DNA of 64,000 nucleotides from Litorivivens lipolytica (GTDB taxonomy: Bacteria > Pseudomonadota > Gammaproteobacteria > Pseudomonadales > Spongiibacteraceae): assembly GCF_014191715.1 (NCBI RefSeq), contig NZ_JACHWY010000003.1, positions 62,001 to 126,000 on the forward strand, read 5' to 3'. The notes under the pieces were generated by a model. That model saw only the letters and a list, made by a program, of their open reading frames with translations. It had not been told where the DNA came from and did no database searches. Both the position numbers and the translations under genes were made by a program. Of the stretch, positions 4,803-33,224 are shown piece by piece; within the stretch, counting starts at the first letter, position 1, and the number at the start of each line of letters is the position of its first letter.

Positions 4803-4871
4803 CAAACACAAAGACGCTGCCAAGCCGCACAGGATTTGCTATTGTTACTTAAGGATAGCTAGGGAGCAGGC

Positions 4872-4949
4872 ATGATCACGTCTGCACTGCTTAACAATAA
4901 CGATGAAAAGCCTATTTCTTCACAGGCACCGGTGGCGTTGTGGCTGTAA
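4872..4949 (+). CDS. Possible 25-residue upstream ORF (leader) before the FHA-EAL gene
   Basis: ATG 4872 follows AGGGAGCAGG and opens a frame of 25 codons whose stop lies ten bases inside the next gene, in another frame. The peptide (MITSALLNNNDEKPISS...) resembles nothing recognised. It may be a real leader that feeds ribosomes to the GTG start at 4940. It may instead be the true N-terminus of the FHA-EAL protein, separated from it by a frameshift, or chance. The ribosome-binding site here is better than the one at 4940. Confidence 0.35.
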   Translation: MITSALLNNNDEKPISSQAPVALWL

Positions 4950-6031: not shown

Positions 6032-6149
6032 AGTCAACCCTCAAACAGGGCGCGTACAGCGCGCTGATCTACCTTGTATGACATAGCGGTAATATCGATT
6101 CACCTGCGCCTTGCTATGCTCAGAATCACATGGGTTGGGAACGAGCGGC

Positions 6150-14772: not shown

Positions 14773-14833
14773 ATCGATCTCGTGTCTTGCTGAATTTGCA
14801 GGTATTCTGGCGACGCGTACACGCGCAGGCCAT

Positions 14834-14846
14834 GACATGACATGTC
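14834..14846. promoter_or_regulatory. Short palindrome in the acyl-CoA dehydrogenase/hydrolase divergent promoter
   Basis: GACATG-A-CATGTC is a perfect 6-base-arm palindrome in the 117-base gap between the divergent acyl-CoA dehydrogenase and YdjM-like genes. It could be a repressor site for the beta-oxidation operon. A match of this length is only modest evidence. Confidence 0.3.
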
Positions 14847-14889
14847 CTGAATCTGAACTTTTTAACTTTCCACGTTGGTAACACGCGCT

Positions 14890-17201: not shown

Positions 17202-18444
17202 GCCTCTTTTCGTTACGCTTCACCTGTTTGCTCTGACCGCCCTGCTATTGCAGGGCGCCTGCCAGTCGGTCGAACAACACTTGCCCGCCAATACCCTCGG
17301 CGGTGCACTCACCTCGTCAGCGCCGCCCCATCAAGTGTCGTCCACTTTCACTCCGGAGGAACGCCTGCAATACAGCCTCGGCGCCTCCTTCTTCAACAAA
17401 CCTTGGGTAACAGCACCTAGCACCACCCACGACCGCGACGGCCTCGGCCCCCTGTTTAACGCCCATAGCTGCAGCAGCTGCCACCCCCGCGCCGGGCGCG
17501 GGCTATTGCCGGGTGCCAGTACTGCCGAGCGCGGCGGTCTGCTGTTTCGTTTCGCGAATACCGGCGGCCCGTTTGGCGCACAGCTACAAACGCGGGCGCT
17601 GCCGGGCTTTATCGCAGAGGGACAGGTGGGCCTGTCCTACAAAGAGCAGACGCTCCGCCTAGCGGACGGGGAAACGATTGCGCTGAGAAAGCCGAACTAT
17701 CTTTCCGAACACCCGGGACTGTCTCCCAGGTTGGCGCCGCGACTGATCGGCATGGGCTTGATCGATGCGATACCGCAGAAAGCGCTCGCGGCTAATGCCG
17801 ATCCCGACGATCGCAATCGCGACGGCATCAGTGGTCGCTACGCCGGTCGCTTTGGCTGGAAGGGTGAACAGCCCACGCTGCGCGACCAGGTGGCCAAAGC
17901 CTTTGCCGAAGACTTGGGCATCACGAACACCCTGTTTTCTCACACCGCAGGCTGCGAGCAAAACCCGGCGCGCTGTGAAGCGATCAGCGGCGGCGATCCG
18001 GAACTGAGCGACGAGGGCCTGGAGCAAGTGGTGGGCTATCTCGCTCGACTGAATGTGCCTCCAGCTCGCCTAAGTGATGAGCACCGCGAAGGCTGGACGC
18101 TATTTCAAATCGCCGGCTGCGGGAGCTGTCATACTCCCTCATGGCAAACCGGGCAGCACGCCGAGCCCCAACTCAACGAACAGACCATTTACCCCTTCAG
18201 TGATTTTCTGTTGCACGATATGGGTGAAGCGCTGTCTGACCCTGCCAGCGCAGATGCCCGAGAGTGGCGCACGGCGTCGCTGTGGGCGCTGGGTGACGGC
18301 CCGTATCTGCACGACGGTCGTGCCCGCACTGTATTGGAAGCCATTTTCTGGCATGGCGGCGAAGCCCAACAGAGTGTGGATGCTGTAAGGCAATTCACCG
18401 GCACGCAGCGCGCCGCGCTGATAGAATTCTTACGCGCGCTCTAG
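17188..18444 (+). CDS. Di-haem oxidoreductase (DHOR/thiol oxidoreductase-like c-type cytochrome)
   Basis: 418 residues with an N-terminal signal (Cys25 may be lipidated, though the box LQGAC is atypical) and two c-type haem sites: CSSCH at residues 95-99 and CGSCH at 311-315. Around them are RDGLGPLFNAHSC and FSDFLLHDMGEALSD, typical of the DUF1111/di-haem oxidoreductase family that is related to MauG-type peroxidases. Periplasmic. Start chosen at ATG 17188, inside the end of the imelysin gene, because the signal peptide begins there. Within this operon it could pass electrons during iron oxidation or reduction; that is inference. Confidence 0.88.
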   Translation: MPRTKPLFVTLHLFALTALLLQGACQSVEQHLPANTLGGALTSSAPPHQVSSTFTPEERLQYSLGASFFNKPWVTAPSTTHDRDGLGPLFNAHSCSSCHPRAGRGLLPGASTAERGGLLFRFANTGGPFGAQLQTRALPGFIAEGQVGLSYKEQTLRLADGETIALRKPNYLSEHPGLSPRLAPRLIGMGLIDAIPQKALAANADPDDRNRDGISGRYAGRFGWKGEQPTLRDQVAKAFAEDLGITNTLFSHTAGCEQNPARCEAISGGDPELSDEGLEQVVGYLARLNVPPARLSDEHREGWTLFQIAGCGSCHTPSWQTGQHAEPQLNEQTIYPFSDFLLHDMGEALSDPASADAREWRTASLWALGDGPYLHDGRARTVLEAIFWHGGEAQQSVDAVRQFTGTQRAALIEFLRAL

Positions 18445-18486
18445 CAAATCGTTTTCAGGGGCAATCCATTGACTGGCAAAAACGCA

Positions 18487-19575
18487 ATGACACACACTTT
18501 TTCCCGAGTCAGCCTGAGTCTGGCCTTCTGTTTTCTCGCCGCCTGCGGTAAGGCGCCGGAGCAGCAATTGCTCGACGCCACCGGCAGCGAAGCCATCCTG
18601 CCCTTACATGAAAAGTTTCTGGCGGAGTCCCTGAGCCTGTCGCAAAACACCAGTGCCTTTTGCGCCCAAAACTCACGTTCGGCGGAAGATCTCGCCGCCC
18701 TGCGCGATCGCTGGGTAGCCGCCATGAACGGCTGGGAAGGCATTCAAAGCATTCAGTTTGGCCCGGTTACCGACGACAACCAGGCTTGGAAAGTACAGTT
18801 CTGGCCCGACCGCAAAAACCTGATTGCCCGCAAAACCGAACAGTTCGTCATCGGCGACGAAGCCATCACCCTGCCCGCCCTACAGGATTCCAGCGTGGTC
18901 ATTCAGGGCCTTTCGGCCATGGAATATCTGCTCTACGACAAACCCGCAGCCAAACTGATCGGCCCCGACGGGCAAGGATATTGCGACCACCTGAACGCCG
19001 CCGCCAGCAATCTGCAGCAGGTTGCGGATTTCCTGCATGAAGGCTGGCACCCGAGCGGTAAAAACTACCTCGGCACGTGGCAGTCACCCGGCCCGGACAA
19101 TCTGGATTACCCGGATGAAAACGCAGCCATCGGCGCCTTGATCGAAACCATTGTCTACGGCCTAGAGCGCATCAAGCGCGACAAGCTGCAGCGCCCCCTT
19201 GGCCTTGAAGGCGGACAAGCCAACACCTTTCTACTGGAGTGGTGGCGCAGCCAGCAATCTCGTGAAGCCATTCTGATCAACCTGCACAGCCTGCAACTAC
19301 TTTACAGCGCGGGAAATGGCGCCGGTTTGAACGAACTGCTGCAAGCGCGCGGCGCCACCGAACTCAGCGACACTGTGACCACCCAGTTTGATCGCGCCAT
19401 CAGTGCCATCGCCAGCCTTGAAGGCAGCCTCGAACAGAACCATGCCAAAGCCGCAAACGCCGAGTCTTTAGAAACGCTTTACGCAACACTCACTGATTTG
19501 CTGGCGGCCTTTAAACGCGAAATCCCGTCGACTTTAGGCATTACCCTGGGCTTTAACGCCAATGACGGCGACTGA
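18487..19575 (+). CDS. Second imelysin-like lipoprotein, altered GxHxxE motif
   Basis: 362 residues. The signal peptide MTHTFSRVSLSLAFCFLAAC ends in a clear lipobox, followed by an imelysin helical domain. The motif corresponding to GxHxxE reads GLSAME (in VVIQGLSAMEYLLYD), so the metal-binding His is Ser while Glu is kept. Such degenerate copies regularly follow the di-haem gene in this cluster type. A TTG at 18469 with AGGGG eight bases upstream is an alternative start that adds six residues before the signal. Its end overlaps the DUF1513 gene by 14 bases. Confidence 0.85.
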   Translation: MTHTFSRVSLSLAFCFLAACGKAPEQQLLDATGSEAILPLHEKFLAESLSLSQNTSAFCAQNSRSAEDLAALRDRWVAAMNGWEGIQSIQFGPVTDDNQAWKVQFWPDRKNLIARKTEQFVIGDEAITLPALQDSSVVIQGLSAMEYLLYDKPAAKLIGPDGQGYCDHLNAAASNLQQVADFLHEGWHPSGKNYLGTWQSPGPDNLDYPDENAAIGALIETIVYGLERIKRDKLQRPLGLEGGQANTFLLEWWRSQQSREAILINLHSLQLLYSAGNGAGLNELLQARGATELSDTVTTQFDRAISAIASLEGSLEQNHAKAANAESLETLYATLTDLLAAFKREIPSTLGITLGFNANDGD

Positions 19576-20650
19576 GTTTTCCCGCCGTCAGATTCTGGGC
19601 GGCTGCCTCGCCGGGCTTGCGCTGAGCCTGACCGGCACGGTCGCCGCAGGCAGCAAGCGCCGGATTTATTCGGCGGCCAGCGATCGTAATAATCGTCATT
19701 TTCTGTGCTGCTGGGCAGAGGGCGAATTGCAGTTCAAAGTAGCCAGCTCCGGTCGCGGCCACGATGTCCTTCTGAATGTGCACACCAATAGCGCGCTCTA
19801 TTTTGCGCGCCGCCCGGGTACCTGGCTGACGGTGCTCGATGCTCACAGCGGTGAACTTCAGGCGAGTGTCACCAGCCCGGCCGGCCGACATTTTTATGGC
19901 CACGGCACCTTGATTCAGCAAGGTGAGATTTTGCTGACCAGCGAAAATGATTTCGCTAATGGCGGTCAGGGTGTGATCGGTATCTACGATTGTCGCGATA
20001 ACTATCGGCGTATCGGAGAATTCGCCAGCGGCGGAATCGGCCCGCATCAGATCGCCACGATGCCGAATGGCCGAACTCTGGTTGTCGCCAATGGCGGCAT
20101 ACTGACGCTACCGGGATCAAACCGCGACAAATTGAATCTGGATTCCATGCAACCGAACCTGAGTTATATCGATAGTCGCACGGGGCAATTGCTCGGCCAG
20201 TATCAACCGCCGCACCCACAATTAAGTCTGCGCCACCTGGATGTAAACAACGCCGGTGAGGTGACCGTCGGCGCTCAGTTTGAGGGTGATACGGCACAAA
20301 CCCTGCCGCTGTTATTTCGTCATTGGGGCGAAGACACACTGCAGCCACTCAGCGCCAGTGACACGGTATGGCGAAGCCACAACCACTATATCGCCAGCGT
20401 TGCCAGTGCTGGCGATACGGTTATTGCCACCTCGCCCCGCGGCAACTGCATCAGCCGCTGGCGCAACGGCCAATTCGAAAAACTCGAACATTTGAATGAT
20501 GTCGCCGGCGTCGCTTTCGACCCGCAGCGCAATGCCTTTGTAACCAGTAACGGTCGCGGCCAGTTGGTACACGTAGATCAGCAAGGGCTCAGCTTGACTG
20601 GCCGCGTTGCCGATCTGCGCTGGGACAACCATATGGAATTGAGCACATGA
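19562..20650 (+). CDS. DUF1513 family Tat-exported protein
   Basis: 362 residues starting with a twin-arginine signal (FSRRQILGGCLAGLALSLTG). The body looks like a WD40/YVTN-type beta propeller: repeated strands with DAHSGEL, GHGTLIQQGEILLTSENDF and SGGIGPHQIATMPNGRTLVVANGG match the DUF1513 family. No activity is established, but it accompanies imelysin and di-haem proteins in iron-regulated loci. Tat export suggests folding with a cofactor before transport. Its TGA overlaps the ATG of the multicopper oxidase (ATGA). Confidence 0.87.
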   Translation: MTATEFSRRQILGGCLAGLALSLTGTVAAGSKRRIYSAASDRNNRHFLCCWAEGELQFKVASSGRGHDVLLNVHTNSALYFARRPGTWLTVLDAHSGELQASVTSPAGRHFYGHGTLIQQGEILLTSENDFANGGQGVIGIYDCRDNYRRIGEFASGGIGPHQIATMPNGRTLVVANGGILTLPGSNRDKLNLDSMQPNLSYIDSRTGQLLGQYQPPHPQLSLRHLDVNNAGEVTVGAQFEGDTAQTLPLLFRHWGEDTLQPLSASDTVWRSHNHYIASVASAGDTVIATSPRGNCISRWRNGQFEKLEHLNDVAGVAFDPQRNAFVTSNGRGQLVHVDQQGLSLTGRVADLRWDNHMELST

Positions 20651-22038
20651 AGCGACGCCGCTTTCTACAGCACTCACTGCAGGCCGCCGCAGCGGCCACT
20701 CTGGCGATGAGCCCGCAGCTCAGTTTGAGCCTGTCACGACGCCCGGACTACGACTACATTCTCACCGCTGAAGAAAAGCCCCTGTCTATTCTGCCGAATA
20801 CTACCAGTCCGGCACTCGCCTTTAATGGTGAATTTCCGGCGCCGGTAATTCGCGCTCGCCAGGGCGAAAAGCTGCGCGTTCATTTCACCAACAAATTGTC
20901 CCAGGAAACCACCATCCACTGGCACGGCATCCGGCTCGACAACGCCATGGACGGAGTACCTTACCTCACTCAGTTACCGGTAAAACCCGGCGCCAGCTTT
21001 GACTACGAATTTGTCTGCCCCGACGCCGGCACCTTCTGGTACCACCCCCACATGCACAGTGTCGAGCAACTGGGTAAAGGCTTGGTGGGCGCCTTAATTG
21101 TGGAAGAGAAAAACAAACCGGCCTTTGACGCGGATGTCATTGTGGGTTTTAAAGACTGGCGCCTGAACAAAGACGGCAGTTTCAAAACTCTGTCAGAACC
21201 ACGCCACGCTGCGCGCGCCGGCACCCTTGGCAATGTCGCGACCGTTAACGGCGAATTGCTGCCAGAAATAGAAGTGCCCGCCAACGCAACCGTTCGCGTG
21301 CGCTTACTGAATATGGATAACAGTCGGCAGTTCGCTATCAGCCTCGGCGAGCATCTCGGGCAAGACAACGCCAGTATCATAGCGATCGACGCCATGCCGG
21401 TACCGAACAAAGCGCTCGATATTCATCAACTGGGCGTGGGTATGCGCCTCGACCTGGGCTTGCACACACCTGCCGACGCAGGTGTAGAAATTCCGATTTA
21501 CGATGTTAAAGGTCGCTTCTATCAAAAGGTCTGCAGCTTGCGCACCACCGCGCCGATTCGAAGCACGGCGCCGCCAGCCATCCCAACCTTGCCACCCAAC
21601 CCGGTTTCCGAGCCCGACGTGAGCAAGGCCGAAACTCACCGTTTTGTATTTGAGTGGGCCGGCGCCATGACACCGGTGTCAGCCAGCGGTCACACCCACC
21701 ACGAGTTCTGGACCATCAACCGCCGCGCCTGGGCTGGCATGCACAGCGCCAACCTGCCCGAACCACTGGCGGAACTTGAGCTGGGCAAGAGTTATATCTT
21801 CGAGTTGCACAACGCGACGCCGCACGGGCACCCGATTCACCTGCACGGGCTGATCTTCAAAGTGTTAAGTTCAGACAAGAAAAACATCACGCCGTTTTTT
21901 ACCGACACGATTCTGCTCGAAAAAAATGAACGCGCCACCATAGCGTTTGTCGCTGACAACCCCGGCGGCTGGATGTATCACTGCCATGTGATTGAGCATA
22001 TGAAAACCGGCTTGATGGGCTATATTCGAATTTCCTGA
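20647..22038 (+). CDS. Multicopper oxidase (Tat-exported, cupredoxin family)
   Basis: 463 residues with a Tat signal (KRRRFLQHSLQAAAAA) and three cupredoxin domains. All copper ligands are visible: HWHG at 91-94, WYHPHMH at 131-137, HPIHLHG at 395-401, and HCHVIEHMKTGLM at 445-457 with type-1 Cys446 and axial Met457. Family members oxidise Fe(II), Cu(I) or phenols with O2. Being last in a Fur-box operon with imelysins and a di-haem protein, ferroxidase activity is the most likely role. No Met-rich insert like that of CueO is obvious. Confidence 0.92.
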   Translation: MKRRRFLQHSLQAAAAATLAMSPQLSLSLSRRPDYDYILTAEEKPLSILPNTTSPALAFNGEFPAPVIRARQGEKLRVHFTNKLSQETTIHWHGIRLDNAMDGVPYLTQLPVKPGASFDYEFVCPDAGTFWYHPHMHSVEQLGKGLVGALIVEEKNKPAFDADVIVGFKDWRLNKDGSFKTLSEPRHAARAGTLGNVATVNGELLPEIEVPANATVRVRLLNMDNSRQFAISLGEHLGQDNASIIAIDAMPVPNKALDIHQLGVGMRLDLGLHTPADAGVEIPIYDVKGRFYQKVCSLRTTAPIRSTAPPAIPTLPPNPVSEPDVSKAETHRFVFEWAGAMTPVSASGHTHHEFWTINRRAWAGMHSANLPEPLAELELGKSYIFELHNATPHGHPIHLHGLIFKVLSSDKKNITPFFTDTILLEKNERATIAFVADNPGGWMYHCHVIEHMKTGLMGYIRIS

Positions 22039-22063: not shown

Positions 22064-22933
22064 TTATGAATAGGGGCGAATAATTCGATTGGCAAACTGC
22101 TCCATCATTCGCTTTTTGTCATCGAGACTGGAGCCTTTACCGAGCGCGTATTCAAAGGGCATATTCAGCCCGGAGCTCATACCGTGTTCGGCCAACCGCT
22201 GAAACATTGCAAGATCGGGTTCAGCCATTAAACCAATCAAGGTATCAAAGGGGCGATCGGCTCGACCGTAGTCGCTGCGCAATTGATTGAGCTCCGCAAG
22301 CACTTGCGGAACCTCCTCGGGCGTATTGCCAGCGCCAATCCAACCATCGCCATAACGCGCAGCCCGCCGCAGTGCCAACTTGTTAGCACCCCCGATATAG
22401 ATTGGAATGTCATTCTTGGGTGCTGGTGCCAGTCGGATGGGCGGGAAGTCGATGTAGTCACCGTGATACTCGACAAGTTCAGGCTTCCACAATACCCGCA
22501 GTGCTTCGAGACATTCATCCAGCCGCTTGCCGCGGGTTTTAAAATCAATGCCGTAAATATCAAACTCTTCCCGCATCCAGCCTGCGCCCGCACCCAGGAC
22601 AAAACGGCCGTCACTGAGAATATCCAGCGTGGCGCATGCCTTGGCGACTTCGATGGGATTACGCAGTGGCAAGACATACACGCCGCAGGTAAAGCGCAGT
22701 GTTGTGGTGGCCGCAGCCACAGCCCCAAACAGGGCCCATTGATCCGGGTATTCCGAGTCTTCGGTCTGGGGCGGGTAACCGCTGTCTGAATAGGGATAAC
22801 CCGCCTCCATCACGCCGGGGTAAAGCGCGTGGTCGCCACTCATCACGCCGTGAAAACCGACCTCTTCCGCAAAACGGGCAATCTCAATTAACTGATCGGT
22901 CTCGGCCCAGGTGATAGGTTGCCAGAATTTCAT
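22064..22933 (-). CDS. LLM class (luciferase-like) flavin oxidoreductase, TIGR03619-like
   Basis: A 289-residue TIM-barrel protein: EEVGFHGVMSGDHALYP, TLRFTCGVYVLPLRNPIEVAKACATLDILSDGRFVLGAGAGWMREEFDIYGIDFKTRGKRLDECLE is the signature stretch of bacterial luciferase-like monooxygenases. The subgroup is often called F420-dependent, but F420 use cannot be read from sequence and FMN is equally possible. CGGAGGCTGT precedes the ATG. It is the last gene of the five-gene minus-strand operon and converges on the multicopper oxidase. An oxygenation step on the unknown substrate of this operon is inferred. Confidence 0.88.
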   Translation of the reverse strand: MKFWQPITWAETDQLIEIARFAEEVGFHGVMSGDHALYPGVMEAGYPYSDSGYPPQTEDSEYPDQWALFGAVAAATTTLRFTCGVYVLPLRNPIEVAKACATLDILSDGRFVLGAGAGWMREEFDIYGIDFKTRGKRLDECLEALRVLWKPELVEYHGDYIDFPPIRLAPAPKNDIPIYIGGANKLALRRAARYGDGWIGAGNTPEEVPQVLAELNQLRSDYGRADRPFDTLIGLMAEPDLAMFQRLAEHGMSSGLNMPFEYALGKGSSLDDKKRMMEQFANRIIRPYS

Positions 22934-22952
22934 ACAGCCTCCGCAACAGTCT

Positions 22953-23963
22953 TTACTGTTGGCAATCGATGAGTACTTTAGCGGCAGTGCTGATATCTCC
23001 AGCCAGCGCCAAGGCCTCGGTAAATTTCGACAGAGGAAGGCAATGACTGATCAACGGAGAAACGTCGATGTCACCACGACTCAACATCGAAATGACGTCT
23101 GAAAACTCGTTGTCGTAAGCCATCGAGCCCGTGACCACCAGCTCACGCATCAGCAGATTGACGAGATCGAAGGAAACCGGCGCCTTATGCAAACCGAGCA
23201 CAACAACGCGCGCCCCGGTTTTAGCCAGTGAGGTAATTTGTTCGAACACCGGACCGGCGCCAGTGGTTTCCAGATAGAGATCGGTGTTCGGGACCGACAT
23301 TCCCATCAGATCAGTACGACCTTGGTGTTCCATCAATGCCGCTGCCAGATCGGTCTGCGCCTGAATCGTGGTCGCGCCCAGTTGGCGGGCAATCGACAGC
23401 CGGAACTCCGAAAGATCGACTGCAACAATGTCGGATACACCCAGGTAACGCAGGGCAACGATGGCGCTTAAGCCGATCGGCCCTGCGCCAAAAACAACCA
23501 CTCTGTCACCTTGTTTGGCCTGCCCTTTGTGACAGCCGTGAAGCGCAACCGAAAGCGGCTCGACCAGAGCAGCGTGCTCCGAAGGCAAGGTATCGGGCAC
23601 TTTCAACAGGGCGCGAGGATCTCGCGCTACGCCGCGCACCTGCAAAAATGGCGCAAAACCGCCTTCAGGACCGCCGTTGCCAATGGCATTGGCGTTCGCC
23701 ATCGGATTGATAACCACCCGATCACCCGCCGACAGCGAACCTACATTTTCCCCCAGCGCGGCCACCGTCCCCACCAGCTCGTGTCCGAGCGGCATGGGTT
23801 GAGTACCTCCCAAGCCCCCCATTCGGATATAACCAAGATCCGAACCGCAGATGCCGCACAGTGACACCTTGACCAGCACGTCGTCGTCACCGGGTTCAGG
23901 GATATCAACCTGATCAATCCGAACATCGTCAGGGCCATGTACATTAACCAGGGGCATTTTCAT
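22953..23963 (-). CDS. Zinc-type alcohol dehydrogenase (MDR family) lacking the structural zinc loop
   Basis: 336 residues. Catalytic zinc ligands are in CGICGSD (Cys) and GHELVG (His, Glu); the NAD-binding VVFGAGPIGLSAIVALRYLGV is intact. The four-cysteine structural-zinc lobe usual in this family is missing: the matching stretch INPMANANAIGNGGPEGGF has no Cys. The start is taken at the ATG 23963 with AAGGA about 11 bases upstream; the frame to 24014 overlaps the next gene's end. It stands four bases from the MBL-fold gene. Substrate unknown, probably a secondary alcohol made by or for the neighbouring enzymes. Confidence 0.85.
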   Translation of the reverse strand: MKMPLVNVHGPDDVRIDQVDIPEPGDDDVLVKVSLCGICGSDLGYIRMGGLGGTQPMPLGHELVGTVAALGENVGSLSAGDRVVINPMANANAIGNGGPEGGFAPFLQVRGVARDPRALLKVPDTLPSEHAALVEPLSVALHGCHKGQAKQGDRVVVFGAGPIGLSAIVALRYLGVSDIVAVDLSEFRLSIARQLGATTIQAQTDLAAALMEHQGRTDLMGMSVPNTDLYLETTGAGPVFEQITSLAKTGARVVVLGLHKAPVSFDLVNLLMRELVVTGSMAYDNEFSDVISMLSRGDIDVSPLISHCLPLSKFTEALALAGDISTAAKVLIDCQQ

Positions 23964-23967
23964 GGCA

Positions 23968-25242
23968 TCAGTTTTCCTTGTTGGCGGCTTCGGCTTTTTC
24001 TGAAAGCAGATCAATCTGATGGCGCAGCCAGGACGATAACCAGAAATTTTCAGATTGCTTTAGTAGCGCCTGATGGATGTCGCGCGCCAAGGCATAACTC
24101 GCGCTCGTCCCCGACCTGGCATTGTGAATCAAATCCAACAAATGCAGCGCCTGCTCATAATGGCCGCCGCGATATTTTTCCTGCGCCCGCGTCAGCAGAT
24201 TATCGACGCCCGCCAGCTCCACAATATCCGTATGCACACTGTTTGCCGGAACGCTGTAAAGCTCGGTGGTTGACTCGTGATGAAACCAACCCGCGTAGCT
24301 TTCCCAGATGGCACGAACACTCCAGCTCACCTTGCCGTAACCTTCTCCCACATGAAGCTCGGGAGGAATACGGATTTCCTGCATCAGTTGGTGGACTGTT
24401 TTACCGCTATTCATTCCCTTCACGGTTTCGTCGTGCACATGCAGAATAGCGCCATGCAAGGCCTTGAGTTCGTCTTGAATTATCGCGCTGCCGACAATCG
24501 GACCATGATGACCGTAAAGAATCATCTTGGGCTCCAGTTCTCGCACTACCTCGACAGCGCGAGCCACGACCAAAGCCTCCCGATAGCGATCGCCACGAAT
24601 CGTGACCAGATTGGGGAAATGCCCGAAGGGGCAACCGAATAAATTGCCGGTGAAACAGATTCGCTGCTTCGGCAACCAGACAATCACAGAGTCATTAGTT
24701 TCGGCGCCCGGCACCGCAATAATCTCGAACGCTATACCGCCCAGCTCAAAGCTATACCGCTCATCAACCAGCAGGTCTGGCACCGGGGTGTCCTGCGCCG
24801 GATACTCGGTATAGCCGTGCTCCTGATAATGCGCAAAGGCCTTCATAAACTTACTGGTAAACGCAAAGGCAGAACGGTTACCCCGAAACGGCCCCAGCCT
24901 TCCATCATAGGCTTGATGCTCCGGGTTATTCGCACCCGCGATAACCCTTAAACCAGGATTCTTCTCGCGGAAATAGGCCACGCCGCCTACATGATCCACA
25001 TGCCCCTGCGTCAAGATCAAGGTGTGTAAGGGCTGCTCTGAAAAACTCGCAAGATTGGCGTCGATAACCGGCGCCTCCATGCCCATACCGGCATTGAGTT
25101 GCACGATGCCTTCCGACGTTTCTATGCGATACACATTGGAGAAGGCTTCGCTCAGGCTTATAAAATCGTTTATTCGTTTTCCGCTATCAAAGCGCGACGG
25201 ATTCGGTTCAATGGGACGTTCTTTGTATATTGCCTGACGCAT
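23968..25242 (-). CDS. Metallo-beta-lactamase fold protein with alkylsulfatase-like dimerisation domain
   Basis: 424 residues. The MBL metal motif reads TQGHVDHVGG, so the first His of THxHxDH is Gln. Later ligands appear in the GHHGP region. The C-terminal part (GYGKVSWSVRAIWESYAGWFHHESTTELYSVP, split here only by description) matches the alkylsulfatase dimerisation domain of SdsA-type enzymes. Linear alkylsulfatases hydrolyse sulfate esters; the altered metal motif makes this reaction uncertain. The start overlaps the stop of the upstream sulfotransferase-like gene (TGATG). Confidence 0.8.
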   Translation of the reverse strand: MRQAIYKERPIEPNPSRFDSGKRINDFISLSEAFSNVYRIETSEGIVQLNAGMGMEAPVIDANLASFSEQPLHTLILTQGHVDHVGGVAYFREKNPGLRVIAGANNPEHQAYDGRLGPFRGNRSAFAFTSKFMKAFAHYQEHGYTEYPAQDTPVPDLLVDERYSFELGGIAFEIIAVPGAETNDSVIVWLPKQRICFTGNLFGCPFGHFPNLVTIRGDRYREALVVARAVEVVRELEPKMILYGHHGPIVGSAIIQDELKALHGAILHVHDETVKGMNSGKTVHQLMQEIRIPPELHVGEGYGKVSWSVRAIWESYAGWFHHESTTELYSVPANSVHTDIVELAGVDNLLTRAQEKYRGGHYEQALHLLDLIHNARSGTSASYALARDIHQALLKQSENFWLSSWLRHQIDLLSEKAEAANKEN

Positions 25243-26510
25243 CACTTGCGCTCCGCCTCAACTGGGAAAGCCTTAAAGTAAAATTCAAAACGCTCACGCA
25301 AGGCGTCGGGGTCAATACCAAACTGCCCTTGCAGGTCGTAGACCACCTGGCCGTGTTTGCCACGGGGATGGTTATCCATAAACGCCTTTAGCTGCTCGCG
25401 CGCCTCGGCCGTCATCGGCAAGTCAGCCTTGGTGTAGATTTTCTCGACCATGCCGATGTCGTCTGCCATAAAACGATGAAAGGGCACATCAATACTTTGC
25501 GCCTGCGGAAGGCAGTCGCGGTCGCGCACGCAGGCCTGCAAAAGGTGTTCAATGCGATCGATCCAGTAATCGGCCAGCTCAGCAAGACCAATTCTTGTAC
25601 GCGACATACGCTGCCCATAGGCAAGCATGGTGATGGCCGATTGAATAACCGCGACCGGATCGCGGTGGGTAACCGCTACGGTGGCATCGGGAAATACCTT
25701 GTTCAACACCGGCAATTGCTCCATGTGCTGAGGACATTTCAGCACCCAGCGGGTGTTCTCGCCGGAGAGATCACCATCCTGCCAAGTGAGAATCTTGAGC
25801 ACCGTCTTCATGTAGTCGTAGTGAGGGGTTTGATCGCTTTGGTAATAGTGGTCGCGCCAGCGCGGCTCATGGCAGAGCCACTCGAAGTTGTATGAGGCGA
25901 AATCCGGCCCCATCAATTCCAGCTCTTCGTGAATATGATCAGGCTCCATGGGGTGCATCGCGGCGAGGTGGGGCACGGTCTGCTGCATCGCCGCCCACTC
26001 GTCAGCGCAGCGCTGGTAGCGGGGATCGGTTCCATCGGGCAGCAAGGCCTCTCCAGGCGTCGGCACAGGTTCATAGGACTCCCACAGGGGTAGCGCCCGC
26101 AACCTGTGGTCCGCCGCCATCAGATTCAGCAGATGCGTTGTTCCCGAACGCGGCAAACCGGCAACAATAATCGGCTTGCTGATTTGCACCTGGTGAATTT
26201 CCGGGTGGCGTTTTAGCAGGTCCTGAATAAGCAGGCGGTTCTTGGCGAAGACCAGCAGCTTGTTGCGAAGATTGAACTTACCGAGGGAATTCAAGCTTGG
26301 GTTGCGGTTCCAGGCATCACAGAGAAGATCCAGCCGTTCGCGAAACTCGTCGTCGCCAAAATCATCCAGCCCCAACGCACTTTTGGCCTCACTCAGGATA
26401 TCGTCACCATCCAGAGTTACCGACAGGGTGTTGCCGAAATCGAGAATCGCACGCTGCTGCTCGGTGTATTGAGGTTGCGCCAGATCCTGAAGATAAATCC
26501 TGCTCATCAT
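25242..26510 (-). CDS. Sulfotransferase family protein
   Basis: 422 residues with the PAPS-binding 5'-phosphosulfate loop in VAGLPRSGTTHLLNLM and a 3'-phosphate-binding region around VAVTHRDPVAVIQSAITM. The middle (MEPDHIHEELELMG) is typical of the bacterial stand-alone sulfotransferase group, abundant in actinobacteria and in marine gammaproteobacteria near steroid and lipid genes. Whether it transfers sulfate is not established for that group. Translation is coupled on both sides (ATGA with the VOC gene, TGATG with the MBL gene). Confidence 0.85.
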   Translation of the reverse strand: MMSRIYLQDLAQPQYTEQQRAILDFGNTLSVTLDGDDILSEAKSALGLDDFGDDEFRERLDLLCDAWNRNPSLNSLGKFNLRNKLLVFAKNRLLIQDLLKRHPEIHQVQISKPIIVAGLPRSGTTHLLNLMAADHRLRALPLWESYEPVPTPGEALLPDGTDPRYQRCADEWAAMQQTVPHLAAMHPMEPDHIHEELELMGPDFASYNFEWLCHEPRWRDHYYQSDQTPHYDYMKTVLKILTWQDGDLSGENTRWVLKCPQHMEQLPVLNKVFPDATVAVTHRDPVAVIQSAITMLAYGQRMSRTRIGLAELADYWIDRIEHLLQACVRDRDCLPQAQSIDVPFHRFMADDIGMVEKIYTKADLPMTAEAREQLKAFMDNHPRGKHGQVVYDLQGQFGIDPDALRERFEFYFKAFPVEAERK

Positions 26511-26962
26511 TCGCTCGCCGTATTTTCGTAAAACTCGATAAGCAGAGGGTCGCCATCGCGCTCGAGATAGGCGGCGGCAATCGTATCGGCAAAGCGTTTG
26601 GTCCAGATGGCGCGGTAACCCAAGGCTTCGGCTTCGCTGACTTTGGCTTCGAGATTGGTCACGCGAAAGCGCAGGTGATGCAGCCCTTCCCTGCCTGCGT
26701 CCAGAAACTCTTTGTGGGGCGTCTCACCCTCCAGCCATTCGATCAGTTCGATTTCAATGTCGCCACTGCGGGCGAACGCCAGTCGCAGCGAACTGTTTTC
26801 CTGACGACCACGATAATTCCAGTCCATATCCGGCGCTTCCATTATGCTGAAGTCGCCAAACAGCGGCCGGTAGCGCTCCATGGCCTCTTCCAGATTGCTC
26901 ACAACAAAACCGACCTGATCGATTGGACCGAGATTAAGTGCTGCTTGCAGGGTCGCTGACAT
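26507..26962 (-). CDS. VOC (glyoxalase/dioxygenase) superfamily protein
   Basis: A 151-residue protein with two beta-alpha-beta-beta-beta modules: IDQVGFVVSNLEEAMERYRPLFGDF near the start, EIELIEWLEGETPHKEFLDAGREGLHHLRFRV in the middle. Possible metal ligands are the early position in the first strand, His in LHHLRF and Glu in LIEFYE. The family includes methylmalonyl-CoA epimerase, glyoxalase and extradiol dioxygenases; length fits the epimerase/glyoxalase group. It is the promoter-proximal gene of the operon, divergent from the SDR at 27076. Confidence 0.85.
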   Translation of the reverse strand: MSATLQAALNLGPIDQVGFVVSNLEEAMERYRPLFGDFSIMEAPDMDWNYRGRQENSSLRLAFARSGDIEIELIEWLEGETPHKEFLDAGREGLHHLRFRVTNLEAKVSEAEALGYRAIWTKRFADTIAAAYLERDGDPLLIEFYENTASE

Positions 26963-27030
26963 GAGAAACTCCCATCAAATATAACTTGCGGTCGCGGACA
27001 CGCGTTGACCAAAATGTAATTCACCCATAT

Positions 27031-27058
27031 TATTAATTCAAGCATATTAATTGATGCG
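27031..27058. promoter_or_regulatory. Tandem imperfect 14-base repeat in the VOC/SDR divergent promoter
   Basis: TATTAATTCAAGCA is followed directly by TATTAATTGATGCG; 11 of 14 bases agree. The pair lies in the 113-base gap between the divergent operons, 18 bases before the SDR start. It is a candidate binding site for the TetR protein encoded at 27822, though TetR sites are more often palindromic. Confidence 0.4.
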
Positions 27059-27075
27059 CGTTTTCGGAGGCGGCG

Positions 27076-27822
27076 ATGTTTAAGGGGATTTCGTTCGACT
27101 ACACGGGTGCCACGGTGCTGATTACCGGCGGCTCCAACGGCATCGGCCTCGCCTGTGCCAAAGCCTATCGCGACGCCGGAGCAGAGGTGATCCTTACCGG
27201 TCGTCGGCCCAAGGCTGAAGACTACGACCACGATCTAAGCGGCTTTATCTACACCCCCCTCGACGTATCCGACCGCAGCGCCCTGATCGATCTGGCAAAC
27301 AGCCTCGACACCCTCGATATTCTTATCAATAACGCCGGGGGGACTCAGGCGGATGAGTGGGAGCACGACGGCTTTGATCAGTCGCTGGCAATCAACTTGA
27401 ACAGCGCCTTTCATCTCAGCACCGCCTGCCGCCCACTGCTGGAAGCCAGCGAGTGGGAAGGCGGTGCCAGCATTATTGGCATCGCCTCCATGACCTCCTA
27501 CTTCGGCAGCGCGTGGACACCAGCCTACGGCCCGGCCAAGGCCGGGATCGTGCAATTGATGAAGACCTTTGGTCACAACTGGGGGCAGTACGGCATTCGC
27601 GCCAACGCTGTGGCCGCCGGCTTGACCCGCACCAATCTGGTGGCACCGGTAATCGAACATATGCCTGACATGGTGGATGAAACCCTGACACGACAGGGCA
27701 TCAAACGTCTAGGCGAAGCCGAAGACATTGCGGCCGCGGTTCTATTCCTGACCTCGCCTGCCGCAAGCTGGATTACGGGGCAAACGCTGCCCGTCGACGG
27801 CGGTTTTACCGTGGGCATGTAA
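27076..27822 (+). CDS. SDR family oxidoreductase
   Basis: A 248-residue classical SDR: TGGSNGIGLACAKAYRDAGAEVILTGRR, NNAGG, catalytic Ser in IASMTSY, YGPAK, and the C-terminal TGQTLPVDGGFTVGM typical of FabG-like enzymes. It is preceded by GGAGGCG before the ATG. The arginine after the second strand (TGRR) suggests NADP preference. Divergent from the LLM/sulfotransferase-like operon and co-transcribed with the TetR gene (TAATG overlap), so it probably belongs to the same pathway. Confidence 0.9.
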   Translation: MFKGISFDYTGATVLITGGSNGIGLACAKAYRDAGAEVILTGRRPKAEDYDHDLSGFIYTPLDVSDRSALIDLANSLDTLDILINNAGGTQADEWEHDGFDQSLAINLNSAFHLSTACRPLLEASEWEGGASIIGIASMTSYFGSAWTPAYGPAKAGIVQLMKTFGHNWGQYGIRANAVAAGLTRTNLVAPVIEHMPDMVDETLTRQGIKRLGEAEDIAAAVLFLTSPAASWITGQTLPVDGGFTVGM

Positions 27823-28490
27823 TGGCGATGACCGCAGCCAATAAACACCAGCAGAACTCCCAAGCCACGCGCGACCGACTTATAGAGGCGGCGGAACAAC
27901 TATTCGGCTCAAGGAGCATCGACGCCGTTTCGATAAGTGAAATTACCGCAGCGGCCGGTCAGAAAAACCGCAATGCCTTGCAATATCACTTCAAAAATCG
28001 CAGCGGCTTATTGCAGGCGATCGTCGAAAAACATGCGCACCACGTTGCAATCTTGCGGGAAGACTACTTTCAGCGCGCCGAAGCCGGCGAGTGGCGCGCA
28101 GCCGAGGCCGCCGCGCGCTGCTTGATCATGCCCCTCGTTGACTACGTCAGAGACACCCCAAAAGCCGTCAACTTTGTGAAAATCGTCTCGCAGCTGTCGG
28201 CCCTGAATAAGATCCAGGGAAACAGCGAGAACGCCTTGGGCATCCAGTTTCCGGCAATACCAAGACTCCGCGAACTGCTCGTCGAGGCGATGACCCATCT
28301 GAGCCGAGCGGAGCAGGAACAGCGCATCTTTCTGGCGGTGAATATCACCTTCCACGGCATTGCCGATATTTATCGTGCCTCGGCCCAGGACAAATCTAAC
28401 AAGCGCAAACGACCCGATGCCGCTATGTTTGAACAGTTGGTTTGCGCACTGGAATCCTTTCTTGCAGCGCCAGCCATTAAAACCCAATAA
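27822..28490 (+). CDS. TetR/AcrR family regulator
   Basis: 222 residues. The HTH is at about residues 12-60 (RDRLIEAAEQLFGSRSIDAVSISEITAAAGQKNRNALQYHFKNRSGLLQAIVEKH, described here only in outline). The ligand-binding domain is larger than minimal and holds the AARCLIMPLVDYVRDTPKAVNFVKIVSQL stretch seen in TetR regulators of acyl-CoA or steroid genes. TAATG overlap with the SDR gene shows coupling. It most likely represses the divergent 22-27 kb operon, releasing it on binding a pathway intermediate. Confidence 0.87.
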   Translation: MAMTAANKHQQNSQATRDRLIEAAEQLFGSRSIDAVSISEITAAAGQKNRNALQYHFKNRSGLLQAIVEKHAHHVAILREDYFQRAEAGEWRAAEAAARCLIMPLVDYVRDTPKAVNFVKIVSQLSALNKIQGNSENALGIQFPAIPRLRELLVEAMTHLSRAEQEQRIFLAVNITFHGIADIYRASAQDKSNKRKRPDAAMFEQLVCALESFLAAPAIKTQ

Positions 28491-28575: not shown

Positions 28576-30375
28576 TTAATGCAGGGCGTTATCCTTTCGC
28601 TTGTCATCGCTCTCGGCGAAGATCGACGACACCGCCTGCCCACTGCCTTTTACCTTCTGAACGGGCGCTTTCGGCGCCGGTTTGGTTTTGGGGCGCTCGG
28701 CCGTTTTAGCCACAGCGGCAGCCTTGGCTTCGGTCGCCGCAACGTACGCATTGTCCAGCTCAGAGGGGCTGGCCTGCTTGCGTTTGCTGGCAGAGCTTTT
28801 CACGGCCTTGGCCTTGCGCGGCGGTGCCTTCGGCGCGGGTTTGGCGACCTTCTTGTTTTCGGTCGCAGCGCCTTTGGCACTGGCGGCCACTCGCTTTTTC
28901 GGTGCCGGCTTGGCCTGCACCAGCGGCTTCACATTACTGGGTTTGGCCGCTTCGCCTGCAGCCAGTTTGCTGGCCGCCTCTTTCATCTCTTCGAAAGTTT
29001 CGTAGAGGAAGCCGACGTATACCGATGGATCGTTCATGGTGTCGCGATCCGCCAGCACCGACAGAGTCAGCAGACCACTGGAGCTGAAAGCCAGATTGAA
29101 CATACCCATGCCCGGCGTCAGTAGGCCCATGCCGTAGTAGCGAACCATCTTCGCGCCCGCGGAATACAGAGGGAAGGGAGGCCCAGCCACGTTGGAGACC
29201 ACACCTGAAATATTGGCCGGTACGTGCTTGCACAACTGATTGTCGATATACATGTTGATGAGCGGCTTGGTCAGCGCCGGCGAAAACATGCCGGTCACTT
29301 TCAGCACATCAACCAGCGGCGAGGCTTCACCGTAGGATTTCGCTTCGTCCGCGCTTTTCATTACGGCCTTGATGCGCTCGATCGGGTCCTTGATGTTGGT
29401 ATGAACATCCAGAAAAACCGAACCGATCTGATTGTTATCGTCGGTGACACCGCGGCGAGTGCGCATGTTCAGGGGAACGGAAACCGCCAGACTCTCTTCC
29501 GGCAGCTCACCAATGCTTTCCAGATAACCCCGCATGCCACCGGCGACAATGGCCAGCACGACGTCGTTGATCTTACAGCCCACGGCATTTTTGATCGCCT
29601 TGATCTCGTCCAGCGGAAATTCGGCCGCATCAAACGCCCGGTAAGGCCCCACCGGCGTATTAAAGCGGGTTTTCGGGGAGTTGATGGACGGCACCGGGAT
29701 TTCCTTGCGGGCAACACCGAGGGCAAATTTGCCGATATCCTTGGCCAGACCAACCGCGCCTTTCGCCATGGAGAAGGTGTTCTTAACCTGATTGACCGCC
29801 GTTGCCGCAGCCAGGTAACCCGCGCTAGGCGGCGTGTCGACCATGATCGTGGTTCGACTGGTGTCCGGTTTCGGGTCGGGCTCGAGATCGTGAATGGCTG
29901 ACATAAAGGAGGCGCCACCGGCACCATCCACCAGCGAGTGGTGCATCTTGGTGTAGATGGCGAACGCGCCTTTGGGAACGTCGACAATATTATCAAGCCC
30001 TTCAATGATATAGGCCTCCCACAGGGGGCGTGTCATATCCAGCGGGCGGGCGTGCAGGCGCGACACCAGAATGCAGAGCTGACGCCAGTCACCGGGCTTG
30101 GGCAGGGCGATATGGCGAATATGGAATTCCACATCGAAGTTCGCATCCTGAACCCAGTAGGGTCGATCCAGATTGCCCGGCGTTTTCACCAGCCGCGAAC
30201 GAAAGATCGGCTGCTTCATCAGGCGCTGTTCAAAGTTGGCAATCACCCCCTTGAAGCGAACCTTGCCCTCGGGCGCCGTAGACTGGTCGTAAATACCGAG
30301 ACCACCAATGTGCTGGGGAGTGAGTGGGTGTTCCAGGTTTACAAAGGCTGAATCTATAATGCCTAGCTGTTTCAT
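28576..30375 (-). CDS. Wax ester synthase/diacylglycerol acyltransferase with a basic histone-like tail
   Basis: 599 residues. The WS/DGAT domain occupies about 1-475, with the acyltransferase motif HHSLVDG at 145-151 intact and later conserved blocks SVPLNMRT, NISGVVSNVAGPPFPLYSAGA and PGMGMFNLAF. From about residue 479 to the end, 121 residues form a low-complexity Lys/Ala/Pro tail (KPAPKKR, PKAPPRKAKAVK, KAPVQKVKG) like histone H1 or the PhaF phasin. Standard WS/DGAT enzymes are about 460-480 residues, so the tail is extra. The enzyme makes wax esters or triacylglycerol; the tail may bind DNA or lipid-body surfaces (inferred). Confidence 0.9.
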   Translation of the reverse strand: MKQLGIIDSAFVNLEHPLTPQHIGGLGIYDQSTAPEGKVRFKGVIANFEQRLMKQPIFRSRLVKTPGNLDRPYWVQDANFDVEFHIRHIALPKPGDWRQLCILVSRLHARPLDMTRPLWEAYIIEGLDNIVDVPKGAFAIYTKMHHSLVDGAGGASFMSAIHDLEPDPKPDTSRTTIMVDTPPSAGYLAAATAVNQVKNTFSMAKGAVGLAKDIGKFALGVARKEIPVPSINSPKTRFNTPVGPYRAFDAAEFPLDEIKAIKNAVGCKINDVVLAIVAGGMRGYLESIGELPEESLAVSVPLNMRTRRGVTDDNNQIGSVFLDVHTNIKDPIERIKAVMKSADEAKSYGEASPLVDVLKVTGMFSPALTKPLINMYIDNQLCKHVPANISGVVSNVAGPPFPLYSAGAKMVRYYGMGLLTPGMGMFNLAFSSSGLLTLSVLADRDTMNDPSVYVGFLYETFEEMKEAASKLAAGEAAKPSNVKPLVQAKPAPKKRVAASAKGAATENKKVAKPAPKAPPRKAKAVKSSASKRKQASPSELDNAYVAATEAKAAAVAKTAERPKTKPAPKAPVQKVKGSGQAVSSIFAESDDKRKDNALH

Positions 30376-30546
30376 CGTGTTACGGCCGTCCTATCCGATC
30401 TTAATCCCTTGAAATGCTGCAAGCGCGCGATTGTCATAATCGTGGCATACCGTGAGTATACGGCGGGAGTGTTACAGCAAACTGAGAGAACTATTCTACC
30501 GGATCGTTCGGCCAAGGTTTGTCAGAAATTGCCAAGACTTGCAAAA

Positions 30547-30564
30547 TATTGACTAACGTCAATA
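30547..30564. promoter_or_regulatory. Palindrome between two minus-strand lipid genes
   Basis: TATTGAC-TAAC-GTCAATA has perfect 7-base arms and sits 172 bases upstream of the WS/DGAT start, in a 252-base gap. It is a likely operator or part of the WS/DGAT promoter. A weaker hairpin (GCACCGCC/GGCGGTGC, 30590-30624) lies between it and the end of the upstream flavoprotein gene, without a T run. Confidence 0.45.
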
Positions 30565-30627
30565 CTTAATGGCGACGCGGGCTGGTGGCGCACCGCCACG
30601 ATGCCCGAGGCACCACGGCGGTGCGTT

Positions 30628-32343
30628 TTAGTCCTGTGTTCCAGTGATATGTTTGGCCGCTTGATAGGCGAAGGTCATGGCCGGGCCCAGCGTTGAGCCG
30701 GGGCCGGGATAGGTCGGAAGCACCGCCGCAGAACAGTTACCCACCGCGTAGAGCCCTTCGATAGGACTCCCGTCCTCACGCAGTACACGGGCATCCGGGT
30801 TGGTCGCCAAACCACCCTGGGTACCGAAGTCCCCAGCATCCAGCCGGATCGCATAGAACGGCGCTTCATCAATCGCACCGAGGCAGGGATTGGGCTCAAA
30901 GCGGGGATCACCGTAGTAACGGTCGTAGGCCGAATCGCCGCGCTGGAATTCCGGGTCCTTGCCGTCTTTGGCGTAGGCGTTCATATTCGCCACGGTCTTT
31001 TCCAGATTATCCGGATCAATGCCCAGCTGCTCAGCCAGCCCGCGCACGGTGTCAGACTTCCCGACCAGTTTGGTGTCGTACCACTCTTTGGGGATGGTCC
31101 AATCGGGTTTGAGCGAGGCCGTCATCAACGGGCCGACGATGTAGTCGCGACGAAAACGGGCGTCGAACACTTGATACATAGGTGAACAGGGCGTTTCATC
31201 CGTGTGCACCTTGTACAGGTCTTTCTGGAAAGCCATATAGTTCTGAGACTCATTGGCAAAGCGCTCGCCGCGCATATTGACGATGCATGAACCCGGATAG
31301 GACTTTTCCATTACGCTCAGGCGGGGAGCCGGCTCGCCGGGCACCGAAATGGTGGTACACCACCACGCGCCGTCCATCAGACGCGTTGCCGCGCCCAGAC
31401 GCAAACCTTCCTTGATCGCGTCGCCGGTGTTGGTAGCGACGCCGCCGCTCCAGTCGGTACTGGTGGGCGCCGGCAAATACTCTTCCCGCATGCTCTGGTT
31501 CTTTTCAAAACCACCAGCCGCCAGTACAACACCCTTGCGAGCCTGCACCCGCAGTGTCTTGCCATCGCGCTTGATGACCGCGCCGACCACCTTGCCGTCC
31601 TCGTCGATCAGCGACTCCATTGCAGTTTCAGTCCACAACGGCATGTCGCGTTCTTTCATCGAGTACCACAGTCGGGCGACGCCCGCCGCCCCAGTACAGA
31701 TCTTTCGGCTGCGCGGACGACCGCGCAACAGCCAGGGCAGATCCAGAAAATAGCTGGCCAGCAGTTTCATCGTCAGTTTGATCCAGCCCGGTCCCTGCAC
31801 CGTGAGCAAAGCCGCTTCCACCTGAGTGAAATAAATGCGGTTAAACAGTCGCATCATGTGGTGGGTCGGGCGCAGACGCTTTACATCCTCACCGAGCAGG
31901 GAGGAATCGAAGCGAGCGGGCTCCATGGAGCGATGCCCAGTACGCGAACCCTCTACGTTGGTGTAGTAGTCGGGGTAGTGCTCCAGCGACTCGTAGCGCA
32001 TATGGGTGCGCTCGTGCATAAAGTCGACCATCTTGGGGCCGTTGGTCAGATAGGCATCGACCATTTCTTCCGGCACGTCACCTTCGGGGGTGGTATTGAG
32101 CAGATACTTTTTGGCATCTTCGAAAGAATCCTGCGCACCCTCGGCTTTTGCATAGCGGTTGCAGGGAATCCAGACACCGCCACCGGAGCTGGCACTGGTA
32201 CCGCCGACGAGATCTGATTTCTCAATGACCAGCACGTCCCGGGTGCCCATTTCGTAGCAGCTGAGTGCCGCCGTCAGCGCACCGTTGCCGCTGCCGACAA
32301 CCAGTACGTCAACGCTGTGATCCCATTTCTGTTCAGTGCTCAT
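30628..32343 (-). CDS. Second KstD-like FAD-dependent dehydrogenase
   Basis: A 571-residue flavoprotein: VLVVGSGNGALTAALSCYEMG (FAD loop), EKSDLVGGTSASSGGGVWIPCN, and C-terminal GLYAVGNCSAAVLPTYPGPGSTLGPAMTFAY. It belongs to the same 3-ketosteroid-dehydrogenase/fumarate-reductase family as the gene at 6150, but differs clearly in sequence, so it is a paralogue and not a recent copy. The final active-site region keeps the YPGPGSTLGP loop. AAGGTAAGCGC precedes the ATG. It is the last gene of the minus-strand lipid operon that begins near 37 kb. The substrate, a steroid or other ketone, is not known. Confidence 0.85.
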   Translation of the reverse strand: MSTEQKWDHSVDVLVVGSGNGALTAALSCYEMGTRDVLVIEKSDLVGGTSASSGGGVWIPCNRYAKAEGAQDSFEDAKKYLLNTTPEGDVPEEMVDAYLTNGPKMVDFMHERTHMRYESLEHYPDYYTNVEGSRTGHRSMEPARFDSSLLGEDVKRLRPTHHMMRLFNRIYFTQVEAALLTVQGPGWIKLTMKLLASYFLDLPWLLRGRPRSRKICTGAAGVARLWYSMKERDMPLWTETAMESLIDEDGKVVGAVIKRDGKTLRVQARKGVVLAAGGFEKNQSMREEYLPAPTSTDWSGGVATNTGDAIKEGLRLGAATRLMDGAWWCTTISVPGEPAPRLSVMEKSYPGSCIVNMRGERFANESQNYMAFQKDLYKVHTDETPCSPMYQVFDARFRRDYIVGPLMTASLKPDWTIPKEWYDTKLVGKSDTVRGLAEQLGIDPDNLEKTVANMNAYAKDGKDPEFQRGDSAYDRYYGDPRFEPNPCLGAIDEAPFYAIRLDAGDFGTQGGLATNPDARVLREDGSPIEGLYAVGNCSAAVLPTYPGPGSTLGPAMTFAYQAAKHITGTQD

Positions 32344-32352
32344 GCGCTTACC

Positions 32353-33222: not shown

Positions 33223-33224
33223 GC

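Follow-up and report, generated by a model that had tools for sequence, protein, structure and literature searches.

Type III alkylsulfatases of the metallo-beta-lactamase (MBL) fold typically hold two zinc ions. In SdsAP, Asp196, His197, Glu322, and His367 bind one of them; the second, which is lost more readily, sits on His192, His194, Glu303, and Glu322. SdsAP also carries a C-terminal SCP2-like domain (PMC5426288). The inverting sulfatase Pisa1 inverts the carbon atom that it attacks, and 18O from water ends up in the alcohol (PMC3725421). Chlorothalonil dehalogenase (Chd) works with a mononuclear catalytic zinc on Asp116, His117, Asn216, and His257, and its His114, two residues before the Asp, appears in the proposed mechanism (PMC12784990). 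Here, we analysed a 64,000-nucleotide (nt) stretch of Litorivivens lipolytica DNA (positions 62,001 to 126,000 of contig NZ_JACHWY010000003.1; hereafter the window), which comes from a genome of 3.49 Mb assembled in nine contigs, and found a gene pair in which a sulfotransferase (SUL) accompanies an alkylsulfatase-like MBL whose zinc site is altered at three linked positions. The gene group around this pair is conserved and apparently undescribed. It comprises the following features, given in window coordinates:

22064..22933, minus strand: LLM-class flavin/F420 oxidoreductase (LLM), 289 aa, accessory (PF00296; TIGR03619, F420 family)
22953..23963, minus strand: accessory medium-chain zinc alcohol dehydrogenase (ADH) that lacks a structural-zinc loop, 336 aa counted from ATG (PF08240 and PF00107)
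23968..25245, minus strand: alkylsulfatase-like MBL, Asn51-Gln80-Asn201 metal-site variant, 425 aa from GTG, with an ATG at 25242 (PF00753 and PF14863)
25242..26510, minus strand: PAPS-type sulfotransferase SUL of the Sulfotransfer_3 family, 422 aa, which forms the core with the MBL (PF13469)
26507..26962, minus strand: VOC / methylmalonyl-CoA-epimerase-like protein (VOC), 151 aa, opening the minus-strand run (PF13669)
26963..27075, no strand: spacer between the divergent arms, holding an AT-rich TATTATTAATTCAAnCATATTA element in common with locus L032 (sequence comparison)
27076..27822, plus strand: short-chain dehydrogenase (SDR), 248 aa, divergent (PF13561)
27822..28490, plus strand: TetR-family regulator, 222 aa, likely local (PF00440; same divergent place in loci L032 and L035)

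A preliminary description of this stretch had noted a Gln in place of the first His of the MBL motif. This residue lies in TQGHVDHVGG and is common to all 67 rows of its clade in a first alignment, so that a sequencing error or lone decay was rejected as its cause (residue numbers count from the GTG start; model numbers are one lower). It proved to be one of three linked changes. In the multiple alignment, the Gln80 rows carried Asn201 in 67/67 cases and Asn51 in 65 of the 66 readable ones; the 41 His80 relatives had Asp201 (30) or Glu201 (11), and Asp51 in 40/40 readable rows. Near-duplicate loci (>97% identity; 17/150) were removed before motif and adjacency counts, and the triads at positions 51-80-201 in the remaining 133 were NQN (74), DHD (44), DHE (9), DQG (1), CQN (1), or gapped (4). 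A quick tree with midpoint root placed the Gln clade at a single origin with a support of 97. In the multiple alignment, Gln80 takes the place of the first His and Asn201 that of the bridging Glu, so that the second zinc site would, by homology, have lost two of its four ligands in the NQN clade.

The remainder of the site is well preserved, with His82, Asp84, Glu182, His246, and Arg217 kept in 67/67 rows, His85 in 65/67, and Asn212, which is not invariant, in 62/67; in the 55 core rows defined below, His82, Asp84, His85, Glu182, and His246 are invariant. Arg217 corresponds to SdsA1 Arg312 in a pairwise alignment, and both Arg217 and Asn212 presumably have a sulfate-binding role. Asp84, His85, Asn201, and His246 coincide with the ligands of Chd, matched by motif without superposed coordinates, and by homology the MBL thus appears to keep an Asp-His-Asn-His set like that of the one-zinc dehalogenase. 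The MBL fold and the alkylsulfatase dimerisation domain are both present (PF00753 and PF14863 above cut-offs, together with the fold matches). The type III two-zinc set His-His-Glu-Glu / Asp-His-Glu-His is broken by Gln80 and Asn201 in 67/67 rows, and a C-terminal SCP2-like domain is missing, since the protein ends after the dimerisation domain with no further Pfam match.

Structure prediction, which the preliminary description had proposed for the MBL active site, gave an AlphaFold model with a pLDDT of 85.2. Among the matches listed by the structural aligner, outside of which further families are possible, the best, taking the top chain of each enzyme, were tied between Pisa1 (Z 30.3, rmsd 3.1, 379 residues aligned), SdsAP (29.8, 3.1, 379), and SdsA1 (29.6, 3.1, 381), followed by the alkylsulfatase homologue YjcS and then Chd (Z 25.8, rmsd 2.9, 273 aligned); PqsE chains were also present. 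Despite this fold similarity, a sequence search with the MBL at E <= 1e-5 did not list Chd. In model numbering, residues 203-207 and 212-219 fell below pLDDT 50, and because the second of these segments holds Arg217, this side of the pocket is unreliable in the model.

SUL matched the Sulfotransfer_3 profile with 127.8 bits (cut-off 27), and a GLPR(S/T)GTT loop as well as R283 and S291 were kept in all 13 SUL proteins chosen for alignment. We take the loop to be that for the 5'-phosphosulfate of 3'-phosphoadenosine 5'-phosphosulfate (PAPS), and R283 and S291 to be the 3'-phosphate Arg and Ser. The host genome has one match to adenosine 5'-phosphosulfate (APS) kinase, which makes PAPS-dependent transfer by SUL possible. 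The only solved relatives of SUL in the PDB at E <= 0.001 were 2zq5 and 2z6v, both presumably mycobacterial; 2zq5 is, as we assume, Rv3529c, which we regard as kin to SUL. Separately, eight Sulfotransfer_3 matches were counted in the 3.5 Mb host genome, along with one MBL match at E <= 1e-20. For the other sulfotransferases, 10 neighbour proteins from four of the seven other loci gave no common pathway.

To follow the gene group across genomes, MBL relatives were searched in genome contigs (81 relatives, 80 loci kept), and the set was then enlarged and freed of near-copies, leaving 55 loci with a core NQN MBL (score >= 600 bits). The five-gene order for which the preliminary description had proposed a neighbourhood search recurs whole, including SDR and TetR, in L032 (Spongiibacteraceae) and L035 (HTCC2148). 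With the window, the complete seven-gene order thus occurs in just 3/55 core loci and was rejected as the conserved unit; its recurrence in L032 and L035, together with the genome co-occurrence described below, likewise led us to reject chance neighbours. The conserved unit is instead the SUL-MBL pair, often with SDR or VOC, and ADH and LLM are accessory. In 33/55 core loci, SUL and MBL share a strand and are not separated by a gene of any other family; either may come first (17 SUL>MBL, 16 MBL>SUL), and the gaps are -1 to 92 nt as measured between homology hits. The coupling of these two genes, the key puzzle of the locus, is a feature of a conserved gene group.

Adjacency differed with the metal-site motif. 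Counts were restricted to loci with flanks above 1.3 kb (1.4 kb in an earlier count), and an SDR homologue was counted as near when within 6 kb. Among the 47 core loci with both flanks, SUL was adjacent in 31, and SDR was near in 27, VOC in 16, ADH in 10, and LLM in 4; the corresponding numbers for the 34 loci with the ordinary DHD motif were 1, 0, 1, 1, and 0. Over all loci with both flanks, SUL was adjacent in 35/57 NQN versus 1/34 DHD loci (Fisher 6e-9, kinship uncorrected), and an earlier, smaller locus set had given 33/52 versus 0/30. The lone DHD locus with SUL (L164) has a divergent ADH in between, and an NQN MBL is found elsewhere in the same genome (L136). A Mantel test on 41 linked SUL-MBL pairs yielded r 0.75 (0/999 permutations), a value confounded by shared descent. 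Besides Pseudomonadota, SUL-MBL pairs were found in Myxococcota (L061, L070, L071) and Actinomycetota (L050, L075). The label Klebsiella pneumoniae of L053 is probably wrong, because G028, which belongs to the same order as the window, encodes an MBL identical to the one in L053.

Co-occurrence was then examined in 342 genomes of this order, using E <= 1e-190 for core MBL, a cut chosen after seeing a gap in scores from 647 to 507 bits, and E <= 1e-110 for core SUL. Core MBL was detected in 21/342 and core SUL in 23/342 genomes, and all 21 core-MBL genomes hold core SUL (Fisher 1.5e-31, kinship uncorrected). The two further SUL genomes, G467 and G048, encode MBLs of 506 and 402 bits that are also Asn-Gln-Asn (loci L144 and L013). 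By coordinates, SUL and MBL are together in 13/21 genomes and non-adjacent in 6/21 (G431, G435, G454, G530, G549, G662; in G530, the MBL contig starts just upstream of the VOC gene preceding MBL), and in 2/21 (G050, G462) contig ends leave adjacency undecidable. Because the genes are non-adjacent in six genomes, hitch-hiking is insufficient to explain their co-occurrence; core SUL and MBL behave as one functional unit even when unlinked. A class-wide search (3/370) was uninformative.

The remaining genes of the locus agree with the preliminary description in placement and family: the ORFs lie where it had put them, and their Pfam matches (Bac_luciferase, ADH_N/ADH_zinc_N, Lactamase_B with Alkyl_sulf_dimr, Sulfotransfer_3, Glyoxalase_4, SDR, and TetR_N) agree with the families that it had named. 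Its five minus-strand genes, in the order VOC-SUL-MBL-ADH-LLM, are faced by the diverging SDR and TetR genes, and the two overlapping junctions that it had reported both measure 4 nt (SUL/MBL 25242-25245; VOC/SUL 26507-26510). Base 27822 belongs both to the stop codon of SDR and to the start codon of TetR. For the ADH, the ATG at 23963 is a likelier start than an upstream TTG, leaving a 4-nt gap to MBL; its Pfam match was run on a reading one codon longer. A Cys-rich structural-zinc loop is absent from the ADH, as had been stated, and Cys and Gly-His-Glu are present, which we take to be the residues usually assigned to the catalytic zinc. LLM scored 215.6 bits against TIGR03619 of the F420 family (cut-off 166.9), and the host genome holds a run of CofGH, CofC, CofD, CofE, and NpdG genes, each above its NCBIfam cut-off (2769-8376 of locus L124, which is G000:C1:870000-882000). 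LLM can be F420-dependent, because the host makes F420. The relatives of the genome with this run are marine gammaproteobacteria.

The TATTATTAATTCAAnCATATTA element between the divergent arms occurs once in the whole genome with up to three mismatches allowed. As a TetR operator, the window palindrome was not significant, the same level being reached by 44/100 shuffles, and of eight regions tested only L033 and L137 beat all shuffles; for this reason, no TetR regulon could be drawn.

The preliminary description had proposed a catabolic operon. This is plausible from KshA co-occurrence and from the KSTD-like/KshA pair in the window. KshA_C proteins (E <= 1e-40) were found in 67/342 genomes overall and in 19/21 core-MBL genomes (kinship uncorrected), and it is mainly on this co-occurrence that the steroid link rests. 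In the window, a gene for a KSTD-like flavoprotein overlaps that for a KshA-type Rieske oxygenase (6150-8991), and a second KSTD-like gene lies at 30628-32343; both proteins scored best against the 3-ketosteroid dehydrogenase model, yet below its cut-off. In Pseudomaricurvus alkylphenolicus (L060), a KshA-type Rieske gene ends 17 nt before MBL.

Several further observations concern the surroundings of these loci. The host genome has nine KshA_C matches. Beside the locus, a minus-strand run (window 28576-37035) that encodes alpha/beta hydrolases and a KSTD-like protein along with two acyltransferases of the WS/DGAT type possibly serves sterol-ester or lipid handling, and plus-strand genes for an imelysin (M75) and a multicopper oxidase (15972-22038) are perhaps concerned with iron/copper uptake. 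Myxococcota-type loci with MBL-SDR and no SUL (L057, L059, L063, L074) have in common a pyridoxal phosphate (PLP) Cys/Met enzyme, a 472-aa protein without Pfam match at 1e-8, and upstream acyl-CoA dehydrogenases. The myxococcal locus L061 has two formylglycine-type sulfatases (CSPTR, CSPAR; 14290-15897 and 6083-7477), one of them directly after SDR.

We tentatively favour, at somewhat less than an even chance, a sulfo-activation module in which SUL prepares a steroid-like substrate by sulfonating one of its hydroxyls, and a one-zinc MBL then breaks the C-O bond. SUL would use PAPS to sulfonate a hydroxyl on a steroid-like or other polycyclic intermediate. In the Asn51-Gln80-Asn201 MBL, with two second-site ligands gone, a mononuclear zinc would sit on Asp84, His85, Asn201, and His246, His82 would act as base, and the sulfate would be gripped partly via Arg217. 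Cleavage could proceed by water attack on carbon with inversion, as in Pisa1, or by sulfate elimination leaving a C=C bond. Displacement of sulfate from a secondary hydroxyl would have an inverted alcohol as its net result, and either inversion or elimination would explain why SUL and MBL are needed jointly. The preliminary description had considered such coupling futile unless the sulfotransferase-like protein catalysed another reaction or the sulfatase-like one acted on a different ester; the coupling is real, and it need not be futile, since cleavage of the C-O bond, in some cases with inversion at carbon, is known among relatives. The product would then be oxidised by SDR and ADH and may be reduced or oxidised by LLM with F420, an alkene from elimination being reducible by an F420 enzyme; VOC may isomerise, and TetR would repress the divergent unit. 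The wider proposal, that PAPS-dependent sulfonation is a catabolic activation step in at least three phyla, with SUL making a ring-hydroxyl leaving group for a co-evolved one-zinc NQN MBL to displace or eliminate, is more doubtful.

Other explanations fit part of these data. The MBL may no longer be a sulfatase and may instead hydrolyse another ester, a lactone, or a thioester, with SUL acting on a separate step of the same pathway. The loss of the bridging carboxylate and of the first His would suit such a change, many activities are known among MBL folds, a core SUL is often missing where the NQN MBL lies outside the core, and seven of the 55 core loci hold MBL-SDR without SUL, a point that also tells against sulfo-activation. 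Against a separate step stand the co-occurrence of core MBL with one sulfotransferase clade in 21/21 genomes and the retention of the putative sulfate residues Arg217 and Asn212 in 67/67 and 62/67 rows, which leave this explanation somewhat unlikely. Alternatively, sulfation could be opposed and regulated: SUL would conjugate a hydroxylated intermediate that is toxic or acts as an inducer, so that it can be stored or exported, and MBL would re-release it or desulfate imported sterol sulfates, both acting on one pool at different times. Marine sterol sulfates exist, sulfatases are the best fold matches of the MBL, and a formylglycine-type sulfatase follows the L061 operon, an arrangement that would suit plain sulfate-ester handling and counts against sulfo-activation. 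Opposite timing is, however, hard to reconcile with two close, same-strand genes that, given gaps of -1 to 92 nt in 33/55 core loci, are probably co-transcribed, and the sulfatase zinc site is altered in 67/67 clade rows; we therefore judge opposed sulfation unlikely. A non-catalytic role of the MBL, as a metal-poor protein for binding or regulation, would agree with three polar substitutions at the metal site and with PqsE chains among the fold matches, but is very improbable in view of five residues invariant in 55/55 core rows, as for a working metal site.

Further observations weigh against sulfo-activation itself. Gln80 occurs with Asp51 and Gly201 in L165, the sole DQG locus, and the pairwise alignment puts Asn201 one residue off the SdsA1 bridging Glu, so that the equivalence of position 201 rests on Asp-bearing intermediates. 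No adjacent SUL was found in 22/57 NQN loci with both flanks. Outside the core the association is looser: among eight genomes with a lower-scoring NQN MBL, two (G467 and G048) reach the SUL cut, two more (G037 and G046) show part of a SUL next to MBL where the locus ends, and G008, G017, G441, and G472 have no SUL above the cut. G530 has an in-frame TGA in its best SUL, and a second copy is open. As for the substrate, steroid genes seldom neighbour the pair: the window alone among 133 loci passed a KshA/KSTD filter within 9 kb, which L060 failed, and for the FAD proteins close to L048 and L075, PRK07121 is a better fit than KSTD.

If sulfo-activation holds, it would give enzymes a new way to invert or remove hydroxyls, placed in the window's genome next to F420-dependent redox, and activation and displacement of hydroxyls by the pair would be a new reaction logic in steroid/terpenoid breakdown. 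It may also suggest a role for the sulfotransferase-like gene of the mycobacterial cholesterol cluster, given the kinship that we assume. The NQN clade is an MBL subfamily called alkylsulfatase-like by domain annotation though its zinc site differs, and the joint presence of SUL and a sulfatase-like MBL in 21/21 core genomes of 342 poses a direct chemical question.

The preliminary description knew of no pathway with this gene set, and in line with this, we found no described pathway or account of the SUL-MBL pair in the open-access literature, to which the search was largely confined. The families are known; a sulfotransferase paired with a remodelled MBL appears, within this literature, to be new. 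In the consulted part of a steroid-degrader survey, the main text has no word starting with "sulf" (PMC4810484). Table 2 of PMC9782250 includes, among the cholesterol-induced genes of Saccharopolyspora hirsuta, one annotated "MBL fold" and one for a VOC protein. The mycobacterial cholesterol cluster comes closer on the sulfotransferase side: Rv3529c, the oxidoreductase Rv3530c, and the F420 oxidoreductase Rv3520c are tabulated in a paper on cholesterol catabolic genes, where Rv3529c is labelled only CHP (conserved hypothetical), and the cluster differs from our locus in that no MBL partner was seen in the consulted part of that paper (PMC6429209). On the MBL side, the type III alkylsulfatases SdsA1, SdsAP, and the inverting Pisa1 share the MBL and dimerisation domains, the fold (Z 29.6-30.3), Arg217, Glu182, and His246, whereas the window MBL is shorter (425 aa versus 633-668 aa of the solved chains), lacks the C-terminal SCP2-like domain, and has His to Gln and Glu to Asn changes at two zinc ligands. 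Chd (6uxu), a mononuclear MBL enzyme whose reaction displaces a leaving group from carbon, resembles it in its Asp-His-Asn-His one-zinc ligands, in the His two residues before the Asp (His114), and in fold (Z 25.8); it differs in its aromatic C-Cl substrate, and we know of no sulfotransferase partner for it. In chemical logic, a parallel is natural-product synthesis of the CurM/Ols type, in which sulfonation makes the leaving group for a sulfotransferase-driven elimination; unlike the SUL-MBL pair, that system is biosynthetic, polyketide-borne, and paired with a thioesterase.

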